DNA from: an uncultured Clostridia bacterium
GTDB lineage: Bacteria > Bacillota > Clostridia > Christensenellales > Borkfalkiaceae
Direction: 5' to 3'
Length of the DNA: 64,000 nt
Assembly (NCBI GenBank): GCA_944372525.1
Contig: CALVZL010000040.1
Location: forward strand, 16,695 to 80,694
Below are positions 51,041 through 60,491 of this stretch, piece after piece (positions within the stretch are counted from its first letter, which is position 1; the number at the start of each line of letters is the position of its first letter). The translations under genes were made by a program, and so were the position numbers. The notes under the pieces were generated by a model. It saw nothing but the letters and a program-made list of their open reading frames with translations, had not been told where the DNA came from and did no database searches.

Positions 51041-54000
51041 TCAGACTTCGTCCTTGGGTTCTTCTTTGTCAGACGCTTCCGCAGGCGTCTCCGCTTTGTT
51101 CGTCTCTTCCGCTTGCTCGGTCCCGGACGCAACCGTCTCGTCCGTTTCGGAACCATGCGCCTCAGTCTCTTCCGCGGAAACGGCTTTCGCTTTTTTGCCG
51201 CGAAGCACGAGCATCGCAACGACGAGCGCGATCACGATGACGCCGAGCGTTCCGATCGCAATATAGACGCCCGTCATATCCTCCTCCTCGGAAGGCGTCG
51301 GATTGTCCGGCCCCGGATCGACACTCCCCTGATCTTTCAGATAGCTGAGCACGCTCTCCGCCTCTTCGAGCTTCTCGTAATTGGTCACGAGCGCCTGCTG
51401 TTCCGCAGTCGTGATGAGGTTATACGCGGCGCGTGCGGCAAGAATGACGGCCTCATCGTTCAGCGTGATATTGACGGGGATCTGCTCGATCGCATAGATC
51501 GCGGCAAGCGTCGTCTCCTGAGGCGCGCTCATCCCGCTGACCACCACGTCGAAATACTGTCCGTAAATGAAGTTCTCGTATCCGGTCCCGTTATTGGGAC
51601 GGACCATGATGAGGATCACGTCGTCATGGGTCGCTTCGCCGATCAGATCGACAAAATTTGCGCCGTAATAGAAGTTGGTGAAATCCGTCCAGTTCCACAT
51701 CTTATAGGGAACGATCTCCAGTCCGTGCAGCACCGTACCGTTGCTCAGTTCGATCTCGCCCGTCATGGGAGCGCGGTTATAGATGTTGTAGACTCCGTTT
51801 TCGCCCACCGTTTCCAGATACTCGGTATCGAATTCCTCTTCCAGAATGGGCGCTTCCAGGCTCTTGAAGACAACGGTGCTGAGGCTGAGACAGCCGTAGA
51901 ACGCTTTATCGCCGATGGCATCGAGCTCGACGGGAAGTTCGACGAAGACGATATCCGTCCCGTAGAATGCCCGCGCGCCGATGCGTACGGTCCCGTCTGC
52001 CACCACATAAGTCTTTTCTGTCTTGCCGAGCGGATAGGTAACCAACTCAAGACCATACTGCTCGTTGCTGTAACTGAGTACCCGCGTGGCATAGACGCGG
52101 TAGAGCACGCCGTCGATCACGCGCACCGTTTCGCTCAGTGAATAGGTATCGGTCATTTCTCCGTCGATCACTTTCTCAAATGCACCGATCTGACAGTCCG
52201 CAAACGGGTTTTCGCCGATCGAAATCAGCTGCTCGCCCAACTCAACGGACGTAAGTGCGCTGGACATGAAAGCGAAATCGCCGATATAGAGGGCCTCACT
52301 CAGATCGGCCTCCGTGATCGCCGCTCCGACAAATGCCTCCGCACCGATATATTTTGCCTTGTCGAGATTTTTGATCGCCGCCAAAGACGTATTGCCGGAG
52401 AAGGCAAAATCTCCGATCTGCGCTCCTTTGGAGGAAAGCGTAAGGCTCGTGAGTTTGGCATTGGCAAACGCCTGCGCTCCGATCGTCTCTGCATTTGCAA
52501 GGTTGGCGGAGGTAAGCGCCGTATTCATGAATGCACCTGCGCCGACTTCGGTGAGTCTGTTGAGCTCTGCCGTCTTCAGCGAAGAACAGTAACAGAAGAT
52601 TCCCTCTCCGATCGATGTGAGCGTCCCCAAATCGACTGATGCAAGCGATGCGTTAAAGGCAAACGCATAATTGCCGAGGCTCTCGCAAGAAGTGAGATCC
52701 ACCGACGTCAGCGGAGCAGACTGTCCGCCGAGATACCCCGCAAACGACATGGACGAAAGGTCGTTCGGCGTACTGCCGTAGTAAACGGGAATACGCGAGC
52801 CGGAGAAAGCATATGCACCGATCGAAAGGACTTCGGACAAATCAATGCTGGAAAGATACATGGCATTGAAGAACGCATAGTCTCCGATCGTAACGCCCTT
52901 TCCGAGCGTCACGCTCTGCAGAGAGGAAGCGGCATTCGTTCCCGTCGTGCCTGCAAAGGCATACTCACCGATCACAACATTATCGCCGACCGTCACGCGA
53001 TTCAGAGCGTTGTAATAGATATTGAGATAATAGTAATAGTTGGTCTGAAATTCCCCGTAGGACATTCCGCGGAGCATTCCCGCAAACGCATAGGCGCCGA
53101 GCACGGCATTGTCGCCGACCGTCACGGAAGTGAGCGCGGAACAAGCATAGAAGGCATATTTTCCGACCTGCACGCCGTCGGGCACGGTCACTTCTTTGAG
53201 CGCCGTTCCGAAAAAGGCATAGTTCCCGATGGTATTCAAAGAAGCGTCAAAAGCGGGAAGCTCGGAAATCGCCGTTCCTGCAAAGGCATAGTCGCCGATC
53301 CTCGCAAGATCTCCAAGTTTGAGCTCAGTTAAAGAAGTGCATCCGTAAAACGCATAGCTTCCGACCGACGTAACATTGGGAAGCGTCACGCTTTCCAACA
53401 CGGAATTCCCGGAGAATGCACTCTCCCCGACCGACGTAATGCGGATCGAACCGTTTGTGCGGAAGTCGGTCACCGTAGGCACGACCGCCACCAACGTTTC
53501 TCCCTCCACAAGATAGGTACCGTTTTCCTCCGCCGAATAGACGGGATTGGCGGGATCAACCGAGAAGGACGTGACTCCGGTCTCCGCGAAAGCATTCTGT
53601 GCAATGTGCGTCACGTCTTTCCCGAAACGGAAGGTCTTCAATTTTTCGCAGCCGTAGAACAGCCCGGCAGGAATGACGGAGGCATTCAGATCCACCGATT
53701 CCAGCGCTGTGCACGCCGCAAACGCCTGTTCGCCGAGCTTGACGACATCCGCGGGAATACTCACGGAGACGAGGTCGGTGTTGCCGTAAAATGCGCGCGC
53801 ACCGATAGACTGCGTGTTTTCGGTAAAGCTGAGGCTGCTCAGCGCCGTCCCTTCGAACGCGCTCGCCCCGATCGCGATCACCGAATCCATTTCGATATCG
53901 GTCAGCGCGCCGCAGCCGTAGAACGCCTTGTCGCCGATAAACTGCAGATTGTTCTCACCGCTGAATTTGATGGATTTGAGGGCGGTGCATCCGTAGAAGG

Positions 54001-57000
54001 CTCCGACCTGAATCTTACGCAGGGTCGAGGGAAGCGTTACGCTCTCAAGCGCCGTCAAATTTGCAAACGCATAAAAGTTGATGGTTTCCACGCCTTCGGG
54101 AATGATGACTTCCGTAATCGTATCGTCCCCGATATAGGTGATCTTCGTCTTATAGGGATCTTCTTCCGAGATCTCGTCATTTTCGTCCTTGGGCACGTAA
54201 TGATAATTGGAGAACGCGTACTGATAGATCTCCGTCACGCCCAGATCCGTAGGGATCTCAACGACGCCGCCCAATCCCATATAACTCATGAGGTAGATTG
54301 AATTCGTCGTATAAGGTTTCTTGACGGTGATCAACACGGATTGCGAATAGAGGGTGCTCCCTCCGTTCATCAGCACTCGCACGGAAACGGTCGCCGAAAC
54401 CTCGGTATTTTGCCCTTTCCCTTCCGAATTGACGTTCTTTGCCGTGACCGTTCCGTCCGGAGTGACCTCGACGATGTTCGAGTTGCTGCTTGTAAACTCC
54501 ACCGTGGTATTCTCGGGGAAATACGCCGCCAGTTCGTATTGCAATGTCACGGATTCGGAAGGGAACATCTTCAGCGAATAACCGTTATTCGTAAAGGAGA
54601 CGACCGTTCCCGCTTCCGTCGCGCCAAGATCGCGATCCTTCGACGATCCGAAATAGAACACTTTGTTGACCTTATAGCCCGTCAGCGCAAAAGAATCTGC
54701 CACGGGCGCGTCGTATTTCTGATACCCGGGCTCCCCTTCCGCCAGAACTTTGACGGTCAGCGTCGCAGAGACAGTCTCATCCGTATTTGCGGTCGCGGTG
54801 ATCGTCGCGGTCCCCGCTTTCAACCCGATGAGCTTGCCGTTTACGATATGGACAACGGTTTCATCGGAGGAGACATAATTGAGAGACTGCGACCAATTCC
54901 CCTCGGGGAATACCGTCGGATTGAGCGTATAGGTCTCATTCGGGCTGATCGAGATCCCACCCTCCGCTTCTTCCGCAAACAGAATGGTCTTCACGGAATC
55001 GGGGATCTGCACTTCGTAAGTCGCAGAATTCTGCGCATAGTCATAGGTTTGAACGATAAAGGAATTCCCGTTGTAAGAATTCTTGATCTCGTCGATATAG
55101 TCGGTCAATTCGTATGTGACAACAGAGGTGGTGTTGAACTCGGAATAGACGGGCGTCACATATCTTCCGAAAGAGCTGAGCGAATACGCATATTCGCTTC
55201 CCGGCTCATTTTCGTAGATATATCCGACGACAAGTCCCTGCGAATAGTGGTTGTCATAGACGGACAGGTTGACAAAGAGCCTCGTCTTTTTCGTCTCCGT
55301 GTCATATTCGGTATAGAACTGTGCGTCGGTAAGCGCGGGCGCCTCGTAATCGACCACAAACGGGAAGGAGAACGTGTTCTTCACGTTCGTCGTCGCGCCG
55401 TCGTTTTCATAGTCGAGATATGCCGTCAACGTCACCATGTACTGCGCGTTGTTCTTGAGATTATAATCGGCAAGATTGAAATCGATATCCACAGAGGAAG
55501 GATAGATCGTTGAGCCGCTGCTGTAAGATTTGCGCTGATTCCATTCCGTCTTCTCGTAGATCACTTCACCCGTAACGCTGTCCGTGATGGTGATCACCAT
55601 GCGTTTCGCGCTTCGCAGCAGCCCGGCATAGACAGAATAGAGACTGTTGACCGTCCCGGTCTCCCCCTCCTGATTGGACAGCGAAATGTATTTCCTGTCC
55701 GCAGAGATCTGCCTGGAAGAGGGATCTTGCGTAAAGGCATAGGAGCCGAGATAGACGATGTAATCGTTATATGTTCCGCCAAGAGGACGGGTCGCATAGG
55801 CGTCGGGCAAAGTCTTGTCGAGCAGATCGATGCTGTCGTCAAGTTCGTCTTTATTCGTCTCGAAATAATCCAAGTCGAAAATAGGCGCCTGCGACCAATC
55901 GCCGTAAAAGGCAAGATAGGGAACGCTCAGACTGCTGTCTGTTCCGCTTGTCGGAGTAAGCTGAATGAACCCTTCGACATACATTCCGTTTTCGAAGGAG
56001 GCGTCAAGATACTCTTTGTCCGCATCGCTGAGGACGATCTGAACCGTCACCTTTGCCGTGCCGTTCCCCGCAACCGTCACAGAATTGCCGCGCGCGGATC
56101 CGCCGGAAATGTCGACAACGGTAACTTTTGCGCCGTCCAGCAGATAACCGTCCTGCGTAACCGTCGTCTCGCCCTGATGGGTGAGCGTTTCGCTCACGCC
56201 TTCGGTCATGACGATCGCGCTGACGTCGTAGGTGAGATCGCTGCTCTGCATATTTACGATCTCAAACGTCATCGAATATTCGCCCGTTTTGGAAGGATCA
56301 TCTCCCAGTTCGAGCTTAGTCTTGTCCATGAGGTTGCCGTCCTCATCGTAAGAACGAAGATAAGCCGGAGTCGACGTCGCCTTCATCAGATTGGTGACGC
56401 CCGCACCCTGTCTTCTCACCGAATAGGCAAGTCCGTTCTTATTGAGCAGGATGTCCGCGGTGGACATGATCAGCTGATTGACCGTCGCAGTGATCTCCTT
56501 CGCCGTCGCATCGGGATAGAGGTTTTTGACATACTGACGGACAAGCGCCGTCACGCCCGCCTGGTTGGGCGCCGCCATGGACGTGCCCGACAGATGATCG
56601 TAACCCTGTCCGGGAACAGCGGAATAGATCTCTCCGCCGTGCGCCGTGATCTCCGGCTTGATGCCGAGGTCGGCCGCAGGCCCCCAAGAGGAGAAATTCG
56701 ACATGAACGGACCTGCCGTCTGATCGCGGCTGATCTTGATCGTCCCCGTCTGTGCGTCGGCAAGCATTTCGCCGTCGTCCTGCGAGATCGAGCAAACCGG
56801 GAAGCTTCCCAGCGATCCGACCGTCATGGAGATCTCACCGGATACATTGTTATAAATGATACAGCCGATCGCGCCCTTCTCCTTCGCAATGCGCGCCTTG
56901 TCTTCGAACGTTGTGTCGCCGCGCCGCACGAGTGCGATTTTCCCTGTCACATCAACGCCGCTGTAATCGCTCGATCTGCCGATTCCCGGGATCGTGACAT

Positions 57001-58450
57001 AGGTAAACGTCCTTTCGTTCTCGGAAGAAGAGAGAATTTCATTGACAAAATATTTGGTCTCCGCACCCATGCCGGTCGATTCCGTAAAATAGATGATCGA
57101 CCCGTCCGCCGTGGTGAGATACGGCGTTTCCGTCCCGCTGACAGATGCGACCGAGATGGCGGAGGCAAACGTCGAGGGCGAACCGACGACGCTGCTGTCC
57201 GGATTGGAGGTAAGTCCGAGGTTTCCGTTTTTCTCGGAACCGAACGTGGAGTTGTAATCGTTGCCCGCCGCCGTCACGAGGGAGATCCCCTGCTCTCCGA
57301 TGGCCTCGTACACTTCCCGCATCGCCGCATTGTCTTCTTCCCGCGCAAATCCTGCGGCGGAACCGAGAGACATGTTGATGACGTCCACGCCGAGAATGAC
57401 GCAGTCCTCCAGCGCGGCAATGATCCAGGAGTTTTTCGCACCGCTCTGGGAATCGGAGAATACCTTCATCGAGACGAGCTGCGCGTTGGGCGCGACGCCC
57501 GTGATCACGTCATCGTTTCCGACAATGATTCCGGAGACGTGCGTGCCGTGATCGCTGTTGATGGGATAAACGTCGGGATCCTTGTCCGCATAATCATAGG
57601 CATAGGGAACCTTCTTGTTGAGATAGACGTCTCCGACAGCAAGCCCGGACGTCGTCTGCGAAGCGGTGAGTTTTCCGATCTTCTCCGCAAGGTTCGCCTG
57701 CGTGATCACTTCTTCGCCTTCAAAGGTAGAGGGATCAAACGCCGTATGCGTATAGTCAAGCCCGGTGTCGAGCACGGCTACGGTAACCCCGCTTCCGCTG
57801 TATTCCGACTCACTGCTGTCAAAAATACCGGTCTCGTAGACATTGACGTCATTTTTCACGACGCTCCCGCCCTCGGACGAAACCGTCTCGCATGCGGCAT
57901 ACTCCTCGCTGACGAGGACCTGCGCGCTGTCTCCGACCGCCTTGACCACTTTCTCATAATCTTTTGCCGTGATCACGATCTCAAATCCGCTCATGAGCAC
58001 GTCGTAGCTGTTGCCGATCGTAAAGCTGACCCCTGCCTTGCGAAGAAGACTTTGCACCTGCTTCCCGTCCTGTGTGACCGCGGTGGAGACAGCAAGCCCC
58101 TCTCTTGTGACCGAATAGTCGCCCACGCTCAGATTAGACATGGAATGACTTCTTTCCTCGTAAGCCTCCAAGACCGTCTCCGAATCCAGCTTGATGAGAA
58201 GGGACAGTTCCTGATTATCTTCTACCGTATCGGGAAGCGTCTGCACGACGGAAGTATCATAGTAATCCTCGATATGAGAATCGAGATCCAGATCGCTCAG
58301 ATCCGCGATCAGCTCCGTATCCTTTCCCGTTGCGTTCTCCGCTCCGGATACCGTCTGAAAAGAGGGCAAAATCGCCGCCAGCGCAAACGTGCACGACAAC
58401 GCCATTCCCGACGTACAAAGCAACGCTTTTCTGAGATGTCTTTTCTTCAT
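51041..58450 (-). CDS. Giant membrane-anchored subtilisin-like protease with leucine-rich repeats
   Basis: 2469 residues. Signal peptide (cleavage near VSG-AEN); an inhibitor-I9-like propeptide region (about 60-190); S8 catalytic domain with Asp228 (VAVLDTGLDYTH), His301 (SDHGTHVSGI) and Ser624 (LSGTSMAAPNQAG), the H-S distance being enlarged by a PA domain (about 440-560); Fn3/Ig-like modules; a Big_2-type domain (about 1175-1237) and another Ig-like domain (about 1270-1400); BspA-type LRR_5 repeats (about 1430-2190, repeating IG.YAF.G.....V.LP); then FIVAR-like linker and a C-terminal helix (VYIAIGTLGVIVIALVVAMLVL) with a Glu-rich tail. Cell-envelope proteinase, comparable in plan to lactococcal PrtP and C5a peptidase. 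First gene of the Opp operon; GGAG before the ATG. Confidence 0.93.
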   Translation of the reverse strand: MKKRHLRKALLCTSGMALSCTFALAAILPSFQTVSGAENATGKDTELIADLSDLDLDSHIEDYYDTSVVQTLPDTVEDNQELSLLIKLDSETVLEAYEERSHSMSNLSVGDYSVTREGLAVSTAVTQDGKQVQSLLRKAGVSFTIGNSYDVLMSGFEIVITAKDYEKVVKAVGDSAQVLVSEEYAACETVSSEGGSVVKNDVNVYETGIFDSSESEYSGSGVTVAVLDTGLDYTHTAFDPSTFEGEEVITQANLAEKIGKLTASQTTSGLAVGDVYLNKKVPYAYDYADKDPDVYPINSDHGTHVSGIIVGNDDVITGVAPNAQLVSMKVFSDSQSGAKNSWIIAALEDCVILGVDVINMSLGSAAGFAREEDNAAMREVYEAIGEQGISLVTAAGNDYNSTFGSEKNGNLGLTSNPDSSVVGSPSTFASAISVASVSGTETPYLTTADGSIIYFTESTGMGAETKYFVNEILSSSENERTFTYVTIPGIGRSSDYSGVDVTGKIALVRRGDTTFEDKARIAKEKGAIGCIIYNNVSGEISMTVGSLGSFPVCSISQDDGEMLADAQTGTIKISRDQTAGPFMSNFSSWGPAADLGIKPEITAHGGEIYSAVPGQGYDHLSGTSMAAPNQAGVTALVRQYVKNLYPDATAKEITATVNQLIMSTADILLNKNGLAYSVRRQGAGVTNLMKATSTPAYLRSYDEDGNLMDKTKLELGDDPSKTGEYSMTFEIVNMQSSDLTYDVSAIVMTEGVSETLTHQGETTVTQDGYLLDGAKVTVVDISGGSARGNSVTVAGNGTAKVTVQIVLSDADKEYLDASFENGMYVEGFIQLTPTSGTDSSLSVPYLAFYGDWSQAPIFDLDYFETNKDELDDSIDLLDKTLPDAYATRPLGGTYNDYIVYLGSYAFTQDPSSRQISADRKYISLSNQEGETGTVNSLYSVYAGLLRSAKRMVITITDSVTGEVIYEKTEWNQRKSYSSGSTIYPSSVDIDFNLADYNLKNNAQYMVTLTAYLDYENDGATTNVKNTFSFPFVVDYEAPALTDAQFYTEYDTETKKTRLFVNLSVYDNHYSQGLVVGYIYENEPGSEYAYSLSSFGRYVTPVYSEFNTTSVVTYELTDYIDEIKNSYNGNSFIVQTYDYAQNSATYEVQIPDSVKTILFAEEAEGGISISPNETYTLNPTVFPEGNWSQSLNYVSSDETVVHIVNGKLIGLKAGTATITATANTDETVSATLTVKVLAEGEPGYQKYDAPVADSFALTGYKVNKVFYFGSSKDRDLGATEAGTVVSFTNNGYSLKMFPSESVTLQYELAAYFPENTTVEFTSSNSNIVEVTPDGTVTAKNVNSEGKGQNTEVSATVSVRVLMNGGSTLYSQSVLITVKKPYTTNSIYLMSYMGLGGVVEIPTDLGVTEIYQYAFSNYHYVPKDENDEISEEDPYKTKITYIGDDTITEVIIPEGVETINFYAFANLTALESVTLPSTLRKIQVGAFYGCTALKSIKFSGENNLQFIGDKAFYGCGALTDIEMDSVIAIGASAFEGTALSSLSFTENTQSIGARAFYGNTDLVSVSIPADVVKLGEQAFAACTALESVDLNASVIPAGLFYGCEKLKTFRFGKDVTHIAQNAFAETGVTSFSVDPANPVYSAEENGTYLVEGETLVAVVPTVTDFRTNGSIRITSVGESAFSGNSVLESVTLPNVTSVGSYAFYGCTSLTELKLGDLARIGDYAFAGTAISELPAFDASLNTIGNYAFFGTALKEVTVPDGVQVGKYAFYACSALTSVTVGDNAVLGAYAFAGMLRGMSYGEFQTNYYYYLNIYYNALNRVTVGDNVVIGEYAFAGTTGTNAASSLQSVTLGKGVTIGDYAFFNAMYLSSIDLSEVLSIGAYAFSGSRIPVYYGSTPNDLSSMSFAGYLGGQSAPLTSVDLTSCESLGNYAFAFNASLASVDLGTLTSIGEGIFCYCSSLKTAELNRLTEVGAGAFMNTALTSANLANAETIGAQAFANAKLTSLTLSSKGAQIGDFAFSGNTSLAAIKNLDKAKYIGAEAFVGAAITEADLSEALYIGDFAFMSSALTSVELGEQLISIGENPFADCQIGAFEKVIDGEMTDTYSLSETVRVIDGVLYRVYATRVLSYSNEQYGLELVTYPLGKTEKTYVVADGTVRIGARAFYGTDIVFVELPVELDAIGDKAFYGCLSLSTVVFKSLEAPILEEEFDTEYLETVGENGVYNIYNRAPMTGEIELSNGTVLHGLEIVPYKMWNWTDFTNFYYGANFVDLIGEATHDDVILIMVRPNNGTGYENFIYGQYFDVVVSGMSAPQETTLAAIYAIEQIPVNITLNDEAVILAARAAYNLITTAEQQALVTNYEKLEEAESVLSYLKDQGSVDPGPDNPTPSEEEDMTGVYIAIGTLGVIVIALVVAMLVLRGKKAKAVSAEETEAHGSETDETVASGTEQAEETNKAETPAEASDKEEPKDEV

Positions 58451-58970: not shown

Positions 58971-59177
58971 TCACGTGCGGTTTCCGTCCTGTTTCCCTTC
59001 GTCTTTTTGCTCCCGCTCTTCTTTTTGTTTGCGGAAGGCATTGTAGCCCCGATTGAGCAAAACGGTCACCAGAATGACAATCACGATGACGATCGCGATC
59101 GCAAGCATTCCCTTCCAGAAGATGTTGAGAGATTGCATGAGCCCTTCCCGATTGATTGCCAGAAACAATGTGTTCAT
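58971..59177 (-). CDS. OadG-like small membrane subunit of a sodium-pump decarboxylase
   Basis: 68 residues. One N-terminal hydrophobic helix (FWKGMLAIAIVIVIVILVTVLL) followed by a highly charged tail (RKQKEEREQKDEGK). This matches the gamma/delta subunit plan of oxaloacetate or methylmalonyl-CoA decarboxylase complexes, which anchors the carboxyltransferase to the beta subunit. Sequence alone would not be decisive; the call rests on its position 10 nt after oadB. The tail lacks the Pro/Ala-rich and His-rich zinc-binding end of enterobacterial OadG. ATG 59177 has GGAGG. Confidence 0.7.
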   Translation of the reverse strand: MNTLFLAINREGLMQSLNIFWKGMLAIAIVIVIVILVTVLLNRGYNAFRKQKEEREQKDEGKQDGNRT

Positions 59178-59187
59178 AAGTCCCTCC

Positions 59188-60321
59188 TCAGAGTACGAGT
59201 CCGATGATGAGTCCGCCGATGATCGCCGAAGCGACTTGCCCGGAGACATTTGCGCCCGCCGCATGCATGAGCAGATAGTTGGAGCGGTCTTCTTCCTGAC
59301 CCAGTCGATGCACGACGCGTGCTGCCATCGGGAAAGCGGAAATGCCCGCCGCGCCGATCATGGGATTGATCTTTTTGCGGCAGAACAGATTCATGACCTT
59401 TGCACAGAGAACGCCGCCGACCGTGTCAAAGACAAAAGCAAACAACCCGAGTGCGAGAATAAGCAGCGTCTGCACGGACAAGAATGCTGTGGCCTGCATC
59501 TGAAAGGCGATCGTGATGCCGAGCAGAAGCGTAATGAGATTGGAGAGCGTCGTCTGTGCCGTCTCGGCAAGCGTCCCGAGCACGCCGCATTCGCGGATCA
59601 GATTGCCGAACATGAGGAAGCCGACGAGCGCCAGACTCTTGGGCGCGATCAGACCCGCCGTCAGAGTGATGACAATGGGAAAGAGGATCTTGACGGGTTT
59701 TCCCACCTTCTGCGTCGGATTTTCCATGCGAATGCGGCGCTCTTTCTTTGTCGTAATCGCCTTGATGACGATGGGCTGAATGATGGGCACCAATGCCATA
59801 TACGAATACGCCACGACCGTAATCGCTCCCACATATTTGCTCCCCAGCACATTTCCGACGAGAATCGCCGTCGGCCCGTCCGCGGCGCCGATGATCGCAG
59901 CCGCCGCCGCGTCGATCAGGTCGAATCCGAACAGACAGGCGAGCAGCATCGTGAGGAAAATCCCGATCTGCGCAAATGCGCCGAGCAGCATGAGTTTCGG
60001 ATTTGCGATGAGCGGTTCAAAGTCGATCATCGCTCCGATCCCGATGAACAGCAGGATAGGAAGCGCCTCCGACGTCTCGATCGTCGTCTCATACAGCCAC
60101 TGAATGATCCCCGCGACCTCGTTCCCCTCCTCCACGCTGTTGAGCACATTGGAAAAGGGAAGATTGACGAGGATCGCGCCGAATCCCATCGGAAGCAGCA
60201 GAGCAGGCTCGATCTTCTTCTTGATCGCAAGAAAAATGAGCAATCCGCCGACCGCCCACATGGCGACCTGCTGCCATGTCACCGCAGCAAGCGCCTCCCA
60301 TAAAAACGCAAATTCTTCCAA
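59188..60321 (-). CDS. oadB: Sodium ion-translocating decarboxylase beta subunit
   Basis: 377 residues, about nine to eleven membrane segments. The OadB/GcdB/MmdB family uses free energy of decarboxylating carboxybiotin to export Na+. LLFIGIGAMIDFEPLI, GAADGPTAILVGN (the conserved Asp of the Na+ site), GFLMFGNLIRECGV and ISAFPMAARVVHRLGQ are family blocks. The start is a TTG at 60319-60321, since AAGGAGG lies 9 nt upstream and no ATG fits. The biotin carrier and carboxyltransferase partners are not in the window, so the substrate (oxaloacetate, methylmalonyl-CoA, glutaconyl-CoA or malonate) is undetermined. Preceded by a candidate riboswitch and terminator. Confidence 0.94.
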   Translation of the reverse strand: MEEFAFLWEALAAVTWQQVAMWAVGGLLIFLAIKKKIEPALLLPMGFGAILVNLPFSNVLNSVEEGNEVAGIIQWLYETTIETSEALPILLFIGIGAMIDFEPLIANPKLMLLGAFAQIGIFLTMLLACLFGFDLIDAAAAAIIGAADGPTAILVGNVLGSKYVGAITVVAYSYMALVPIIQPIVIKAITTKKERRIRMENPTQKVGKPVKILFPIVITLTAGLIAPKSLALVGFLMFGNLIRECGVLGTLAETAQTTLSNLITLLLGITIAFQMQATAFLSVQTLLILALGLFAFVFDTVGGVLCAKVMNLFCRKKINPMIGAAGISAFPMAARVVHRLGQEEDRSNYLLMHAAGANVSGQVASAIIGGLIIGLVL

Positions 60322-60343
60322 GTTCCGATCCTCCTTCGTTTTA

Positions 60344-60374
60344 CAAAAAAACCATACCGAAAAACCGGTATGGT
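60344..60374 (-). terminator. Leader terminator (expression platform) before oadB
   Basis: A 9-bp perfect stem ACCATACCG/CGGTATGGT with a 6-nt loop followed on the minus strand by T7, 23 nt before the oadB start codon. Its 5' arm shares CCATAC with the closing helix of the aptamer just upstream. Confidence 0.85.
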
Positions 60375-60453
60375 CTCGTCATTTCAAATGAAACCGGGGT
60401 ATGCGCCCGTGTTAGCGACTTCATTGCGATCTCTCGCCGACTACTCCCCAAAC
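60368..60453 (-). ncRNA. Candidate yybP-ykoY (manganese) riboswitch aptamer
   Basis: In the leader of oadB, minus strand, the sequence contains GGGGAGTAG (complement of 60441-60449), a GCGA/TCGC hairpin, then AATGAAG paired with TTTCATT enclosing TCGCTAACA and a GGG/CCC stem, and GACGAGACC. This order matches yybP-ykoY riboswitches as I know them (conserved GGGGAGUAG, a P3 arm with UCGUCAAU-like loop, AGACC at the 3' end). The closing helix GTTTGG/CCATAC competes with the downstream terminator, giving an ON switch when ligand stabilises the aptamer. Assignment is by eye; the 3' junction is shorter than in the best-known example. Confidence 0.72.
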
Positions 60454-60462
60454 AACGTCCCC

Positions 60463-60491
60463 AGTATATCTCATTCATGCGCATTTGTCAA
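60463..60491 (-). promoter_or_regulatory. Promoter of the riboswitch-oadB-oadG transcript
   Basis: On the minus strand TTGACA (complement of 60486-60491), 17-bp spacer, TATACT (complement of 60463-60468). The transcript would start near 60456, just 5' of the aptamer. Confidence 0.8.

Follow-up and report, generated by a model that had tools for sequence, protein, structure and literature searches.

A predicted manganese riboswitch of the yybP-ykoY class upstream of an oxaloacetate decarboxylase beta-subunit paralogue in Clostridia

In a 64,000-nucleotide stretch of Clostridia DNA (the window), a minus-strand leader (60491-60345) preceding a paralogue of the oxaloacetate decarboxylase beta subunit, OadB, is predicted to be a Mn2+ riboswitch of the yybP-ykoY class, a known kind of RNA, and homologous leaders support this assignment. 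The explanation that best accounts for the data as a whole, and that we consider probable from sequence, is a terminating Mn2+ ON riboswitch governing an OadB that would serve as a Na+-coupled Mn2+ exporter. The three-way-junction form of the RNA is already known; the OAD_beta target is the new part.

The leader was confirmed to be a real feature. Its promoter, aptamer elements and terminator (Table 1) lie in the order that the first-pass annotation of this DNA had read, and the sequence, the fold and the promoter match bear that order out; 0.3 promoters of this kind were expected by chance in shuffles. The closing helix GTTTGG/CCATAC does share a strand with the terminator arm, as had been proposed, although it contains one U-U mismatch that the proposal did not mention. 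The inner three pairs of P1.1 are present in the consensus of oadB leaders, and among 27 aligned oadB leaders the first G of L1 varies while every other L1 position is invariant. The minimum free energy (MFE) of the whole leader is -40.7 kcal/mol (z -2.84), with equally low values in 1 of 200 shuffles. Because the free MFE fold is that of the terminator and not the aptamer, the aptamer call depends on homologues rather than on folding, and it is the compensatory changes carried by homologous leaders elsewhere that place the leader beyond chance. A simple terminator scanner returned 0 sites on the leader, we think because the stem extends into the T run.

Table 1. Features of the oadB leader and the genes behind it, in window coordinates
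Feature	Position	Strand	Evidence or remark
Promoter TTGACA-17-TATACT	60463..60491	-	11/12 consensus positions matched
Predicted Mn2+ aptamer, yybP-ykoY type, three-way-junction, including 10 nt of 5′ flank	60366..60463	-	R1 covariance model; homologues with covariation
P1.1 5′ strand GTTTGG	60448..60453	-	pairs with CCATAC, 60368-60373
L1 GGGGAGTAG	60441..60449	-	sequence; 27-leader oadB alignment
P2 hairpin GCGA-GAGA-TCGC	60426..60437	-	sequence and consensus fold
P3.1/L3/P3.2 paired arm	60387..60425	-	alignment
TCGCTAACA within paired arm	60410..60418	-	sequence
GACGAGACC	60372..60380	-	sequence
Intrinsic terminator hairpin, 5′ arm includes P1.1 3′ strand CCATAC	about 60351..60374	-	sequence and fold
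T run 3′ of terminator hairpin	60345..60352	-	sequence
oadB paralogue, 377 aa, clade 1 OAD_beta, start TTG, AAGGAGG ahead	59188..60321	-	PF03977, 483.3 bits; tree
68-aa one-helix protein, gamma-subunit-like, 10 nt past oadB stop	58971..59177	-	sequence

No Rfam model matched anywhere in the window at the gathering cut-off. The search with the yybP-ykoY model (RF00080) that had been suggested as a check gave 0 matches in the window at this cut-off and none on the leader up to E 10, and the best permissive Rfam match of the leader was SSRC10 (RF02617; 31.9 bits, E 1.4e-4, cut-off 56). In 101 related genomes, RF00080 produced weak matches in 39 and none above its cut-off, despite 24 clear mntP leaders, which argues that the cut-off is blind to the compact form. 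The model does reach seven other oadB leaders (G135, G119, G109, G118, G088, G113 and G108; E 3e-8 to 0.012), all under the cut-off. BLAST of the leader against 101 genomes recovered it in two genomes of the same genus (85% and 74%), with an OAD_beta gene downstream in both cases. A genome from another family gave a weak match (E 0.009, 69%) ahead of an MntP gene; the remaining matches among those listed were short.

Homology to the leaders of Mn2+ exporter genes was established with a covariance model, R1, trained on mntP-type leaders alone. Twenty-five of 30 loci derived from RF00080 matches resemble full mntP-type leaders, and in 24 of these 25 an MntP-like frame lies no more than 700 nt away; for training leader L069, the MntP match is split in two and lies about 1 kb on, not directly behind the leader. 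L074 precedes a P-type ATPase gene and L075 an OAD_beta gene, and three short partial loci, one of them (L079) upstream of an MntP-like frame, were left unused. R1 was built from 26 mntP-type leaders (the 25 plus L005) and no oadB leader, on an alignment with double changes in 17 of 29 pairs. It matched the window leader at full length (1-101) with 51.8 bits and E 6.3e-12, E-values being rough according to the tool's own remark. Both hallmarks of the class, L1 GGGGAGUAG and the L3 adenosine, are present in the window leader, and the column of this adenosine is invariant in 27/27 oadB and 26/26 mntP-type leaders. By alignment, A60413 would be the counterpart of the adenosine that contacts Mn2+ in L. 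lactis (A41) and X. oryzae (A48) (PMC6754395). The class named in the first-pass annotation was therefore upheld by R1, homologues and covariation, and not by RF00080; the ligand of the leader RNA is very probably Mn2+.

Covariation was assessed in 27 of the 48 oadB leaders, chosen for like length and type, a selection that favours a clean result. In this alignment 95.6% of cells are paired and double changes occur in 18 of 27 pairs, so that homologous oadB leaders do not lack the covariation whose absence had been named beforehand as evidence against the class. None of 500 shuffles scored as high, and sliding the partner strand left 30-40% paired. The covariation supports P1, P2 and P3, with double changes in one pair of three in P1.1 itself, and the elements of the consensus fold follow in the order P1.1, L1, P1.2, P2, P3.1, L3, P3.2. 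Crystal structures of yybP-ykoY RNAs have a four-way junction with P4. This helix was looked for in the consensus folds of mntP-type and oadB leaders and was absent from them; it was not counted as required, since a three-way-junction member has been reported in S. pneumoniae (PMC9495176).

The 3′ strand of P1, which follows AGA, doubles as the 5′ arm of a terminator with a T run in 46 of 48 oadB leaders, in 25/26 mntP-type leaders and in the 1/1 P-type ATPase leader; the two oadB exceptions, L134 and L167, have the hairpin and no T4 close by. This overlap upholds the earlier proposal that ligand binding would switch expression on, and in all likelihood the leader acts as a Mn2+ ON switch via antitermination. 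At low Mn2+, CCATAC would join the terminator and oadB would be off. Mn2+ bound between L1 and L3 would hold P1.1 (GTTTGG/CCATAC), and P1.1, once held, would block the terminator and allow oadB and the one-helix microprotein gene to be transcribed. We adopt here the account in PMC6754395, which describes Mn2+ riboswitch action as antitermination (ON); contrary to it, one review labels Mn2+ riboswitches OFF switches (PMC11477304).

The OAD_beta tree, computed without L131, L093 and L184, consists of two clades split by a 100% branch (SH-aLRT), and leaders were found only on the window's side of it, clade 1, among the loci examined. R1 gave 47 matches at E <= 1 on the window and 80 loci of its nearest OadB relatives (857,685 bases). 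In 40 of the 80 clade-1 loci 45-174 nt separate the end of the leader from the oadB match behind it, and the beta-subunit gene, which had been called an unusual target, thus held up in the survey of relatives proposed with it. The other 40 have no clear leader directly upstream by R1, including three (L185, L183 and L149) in which one lies upstream of oadB at E 0.5-0.94; at L138, L142 and L161 a leader stands ahead of a neighbouring gene, and a motif scan found leaders in 43/80 loci. As a control, R1 detected the leader in 0/33 clade-2 loci, which hold 31 distinct genes, and further loci from the window's side of the OadB tree had it in 5/17 cases. The leader state changes at least 14 times on this tree, with 8 changes forced by well-supported branches, and local duplication as the sole source was rejected for this reason. 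At L142 (61-3041), a Mn2+-type leader is followed by a Na/Pi cotransporter gene with a PhoU domain and then by clade-1 oadB, possibly an operon joining Mn2+ and phosphate.

Among 391 genomes of the class, R1 matched 101 at E <= 1e-4. The window genome was matched twice, before oadB and before mntP (C23, 82.5 bits, a leader outside the R1 training set), and its closest relatives, G049 and G038, have the same pair of leaders. Because mntP of this genome has an RNA of the same kind ahead of it, oadB appears to be part of a small Mn2+-stress regulon. The idea that oadB replaces mntP was rejected, as PF02659 was found in G000, G049 and G038. Genes were assigned at 111 R1 sites, the window's own excluded and with one member each confirmed for most families, as follows: MntP 42 (in three cases with a Na/Ca exchanger behind it), P-type cation ATPase 39, Na/Ca exchanger 9, ABC ATPase 7, clade-1 OadB 4, GDT1 4, CitMHS 1 and none 5. 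Genes behind the leader are thus mostly cation exporters class-wide, and no clade-2 OadB was among those assigned.

Several of these sites have features of their own. The ABC ATPase sites (L217, L228, L232, L238, L239, L240 and L268) combine a Mn2+-type leader with the ATPase gene and a large adjacent frame; ABC ATPase genes are not known to be Mn2+ riboswitch targets. At L286 (G151:C60, 4825-4927 and 4969-5067), a single P-type ATPase gene is preceded by two Mn2+-type leaders arranged in tandem. A further leader (L293, G216:C177; E 3.8e-7) precedes a frame encoding 2Fe-2S and RACo domains where the contig ends.

The product of the window oadB belongs to OAD_beta by both profile and predicted fold. 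Its AlphaFold model (pLDDT 84.7) has 6iww_A as top match (TM 0.85, 42% identity), with CitS and Na+/H+ antiporters such as NapA next and far weaker. The 68-aa protein scores 14.2 bits against PF04277 (OAD_gamma), below the cut-off of 27. This gamma-like frame follows the window oadB, and no alpha or biotin carrier gene lies beside it; the other OAD_beta copy of the genome is a clade-2 member in a full decarboxylase operon at C33, without a leader. By tblastn within loci, OadA-type alpha occurs in 2/80 clade-1 loci versus 29/33 clade-2 loci and the biotin carrier in 2/80 versus 31/33, the clade-2 loci being the shorter; the same two clade-1 loci, L135 and L137, hold both. A plain decarboxylase operon was rejected on these grounds. 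Nothing came to light in favour of the speculative link through the metal of the carboxyltransferase subunit. The phrase "sodium-pump decarboxylase subunits" in the first-pass annotation is correct as a name by homology and does not extend to a decarboxylase operon, because what is found is a stand-alone beta and gamma-like pair. The next large gene after this pair is a 2469-aa frame (51041-58450, minus strand) that to our eye encodes a secreted protein resembling subtilases and carrying leucine-rich repeats.

A microprotein gene with one helix and the motif follows oadB in 67 of 80 clade-1 loci, and 8 more loci have a similar frame without the exact motif. In OadB itself, the Na+-site residues of StOAD (D203, S382 and N412) are kept in 85/85 clade-1 rows, a set in which L131 is gapped and L093, the same gene as L111, is nevertheless counted. 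Clade 1 also retains E40 throughout, a residue on which carboxybiotin decarboxylation critically depends. R304 is present in 11/85 clade-1 versus 31/31 clade-2 rows and N311 in 49/85 clade-1 rows; the window OadB has T at both 304 and 311. In an alignment of 94 clade-1 rows made without L131, L093, L100 and L104, 15 positions differ between the clades, and D299, M275 and Q362 each occur in 94/94 clade-1 rows.

We propose that the OadB paralogue would work without a decarboxylase, as a Na+-coupled carrier that would expel Mn2+, or a divalent ion resembling it. Mn2+ export is the likeliest role of clade-1 OadB, with about an even chance against everything else together, and is favoured by the regulon, by the loss of R304 and by the absence of a nearby alpha, together with the shortness of the microprotein. 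Export-type genes adjoin some clade-1 oadB genes, namely those for MntP and P-type ATPases at L138, L161 and L179 and for a cation efflux facilitator at L127 and L178. The exporter role is weakened by the retention of E40, by N311 in 49/85 rows, by the moderate effect of R304A and N311A on the enzyme (PMC7274780) and by the possibility of an alpha acting in trans, and also by the tail of the window microprotein, which at 27 residues after the helix is unlike most very short ones (median 8, n=67).

An unlikely alternative keeps the same Mn2+ riboswitch and makes beta and gamma a working Na+ pump that takes carboxybiotin from an alpha encoded elsewhere, its Na+ gradient being spent by Na+-coupled Mn2+ exporters. 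In its favour, every Na+-site residue and E40 are retained, and an alpha in trans is possible because an oadA-type match lies elsewhere in 44/45 genomes, none of them above the family cut-off. Biotin chemistry is hinted at by the alpha, carrier and beta sets of L135 and L137 and by birA-bioY beside clade-1 oadB at L117, L120 and L124; membrane pyrophosphatase adjoins it at L157, L172 and L187, and Na/Ca exchangers carry the same leader. Against a pump, R304 is lost in 74/85 rows, 78/80 loci are without an alpha or carrier match, and the microprotein tail is typically short, whereas the gamma tail binds the alpha subunit (PMC7274780). Moreover, 42/44 leader-bearing genomes already own another full-length OAD_beta. 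The exceptions are G127 and G135; in G127 the leader-borne copy is the single full-length one and no oadA match was found, an absence that carries little weight because G127 is a metagenome assembly.

It is improbable that the RNA has switched ligand and reports Na+, Ca2+ or another ion as the substrate of a Na+ pump. The target is indeed a sodium-pump homologue, and according to a review Ca2+ is also a ligand of the three-way-junction RNA of S. pneumoniae mgtA (PMC9495176). L1 and the discriminator adenosine are nevertheless the same in all 27 oadB and 26 mntP-type leaders, and one genome carries the RNA at both mntP and oadB. A Na+-I riboswitch (DUF1646, RF03071) is a far more remote prospect: its targets according to White et al. 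2022 include oxaloacetate decarboxylase (PMC9337991), but the RF03071 search that had also been suggested gave no match on the leader up to E 10, and the Na+-I aptamer, described there as two stems (P1, P2) carried by an unstructured linker, has another architecture. Chance resemblance of a mere terminator leader to the aptamer, which would fit the dominance of the terminator in the free fold and the failure of RF00080, is countered by the R1 matches and the covariation and has a negligible probability.

A Mn2+ riboswitch with an exporter target would have wider implications. In the open-access literature, covered through titles and abstract openings and with the target lists of Dambach 2015, Price 2015 and Martin 2019 outside that scope, no link between a Mn2+ riboswitch and OAD_beta was found, and the Na+-I riboswitch paper alone surfaced for oxaloacetate decarboxylase together with yybP-ykoY. 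If the proposal is true, a whole protein family joins the Mn2+ regulon of Clostridia, and there is a concrete, testable guess at its function: the beta subunit of a Na+ pump would have become a metal exporter. Our results also suggest that the compact form escapes the Rfam manganese model at its cut-off, so that the extent of Mn2+ control in these bacteria is underestimated. More tentatively, at somewhat less than an even chance, clade-1 OadB and its microprotein may be an unrecognised Na+/Mn2+ antiporter family derived from the decarboxylase beta subunit, with riboswitches repeatedly gained and lost in gut Clostridia; such a family would have arisen by uncoupling from alpha and by acquiring ligands, D299 and M275 among them.

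Among known systems, the leader resembles yybP-ykoY RNAs (RF00080) in the L1 motif, in L3 with its invariant adenosine, in a P1 switch helix that runs into the terminator and in targets that are mostly cation exporters. It differs in having a three-way junction without P4, in falling below the model cut-off and in preceding an OAD_beta paralogue. The three-way-junction yybP-ykoY RNA of S. pneumoniae mgtA shares its compact layout and is that of a gene described as encoding a Ca2+/Mn2+ ATPase (PMC9495176) rather than OadB. SSRC10 (Streptococcus 'sRNA 10') matched window 60343-60453, L003, L005 and L134 at 30.9-36.4 bits (cut-off 56), and its consensus has, to our eye, the look of a three-way-junction Mn2+ riboswitch with a terminator, not that of a free sRNA. 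The Na+-I riboswitch can likewise precede oxaloacetate decarboxylase genes (PMC9337991), with a different fold. Finally, the window OadB is predicted to share the fold of StOAD beta (6iva/6iww) and has its Na+-site residues, whereas it belongs to a separate clade, has threonines in place of R304 and N311, and lacks an adjoining alpha or biotin carrier gene.
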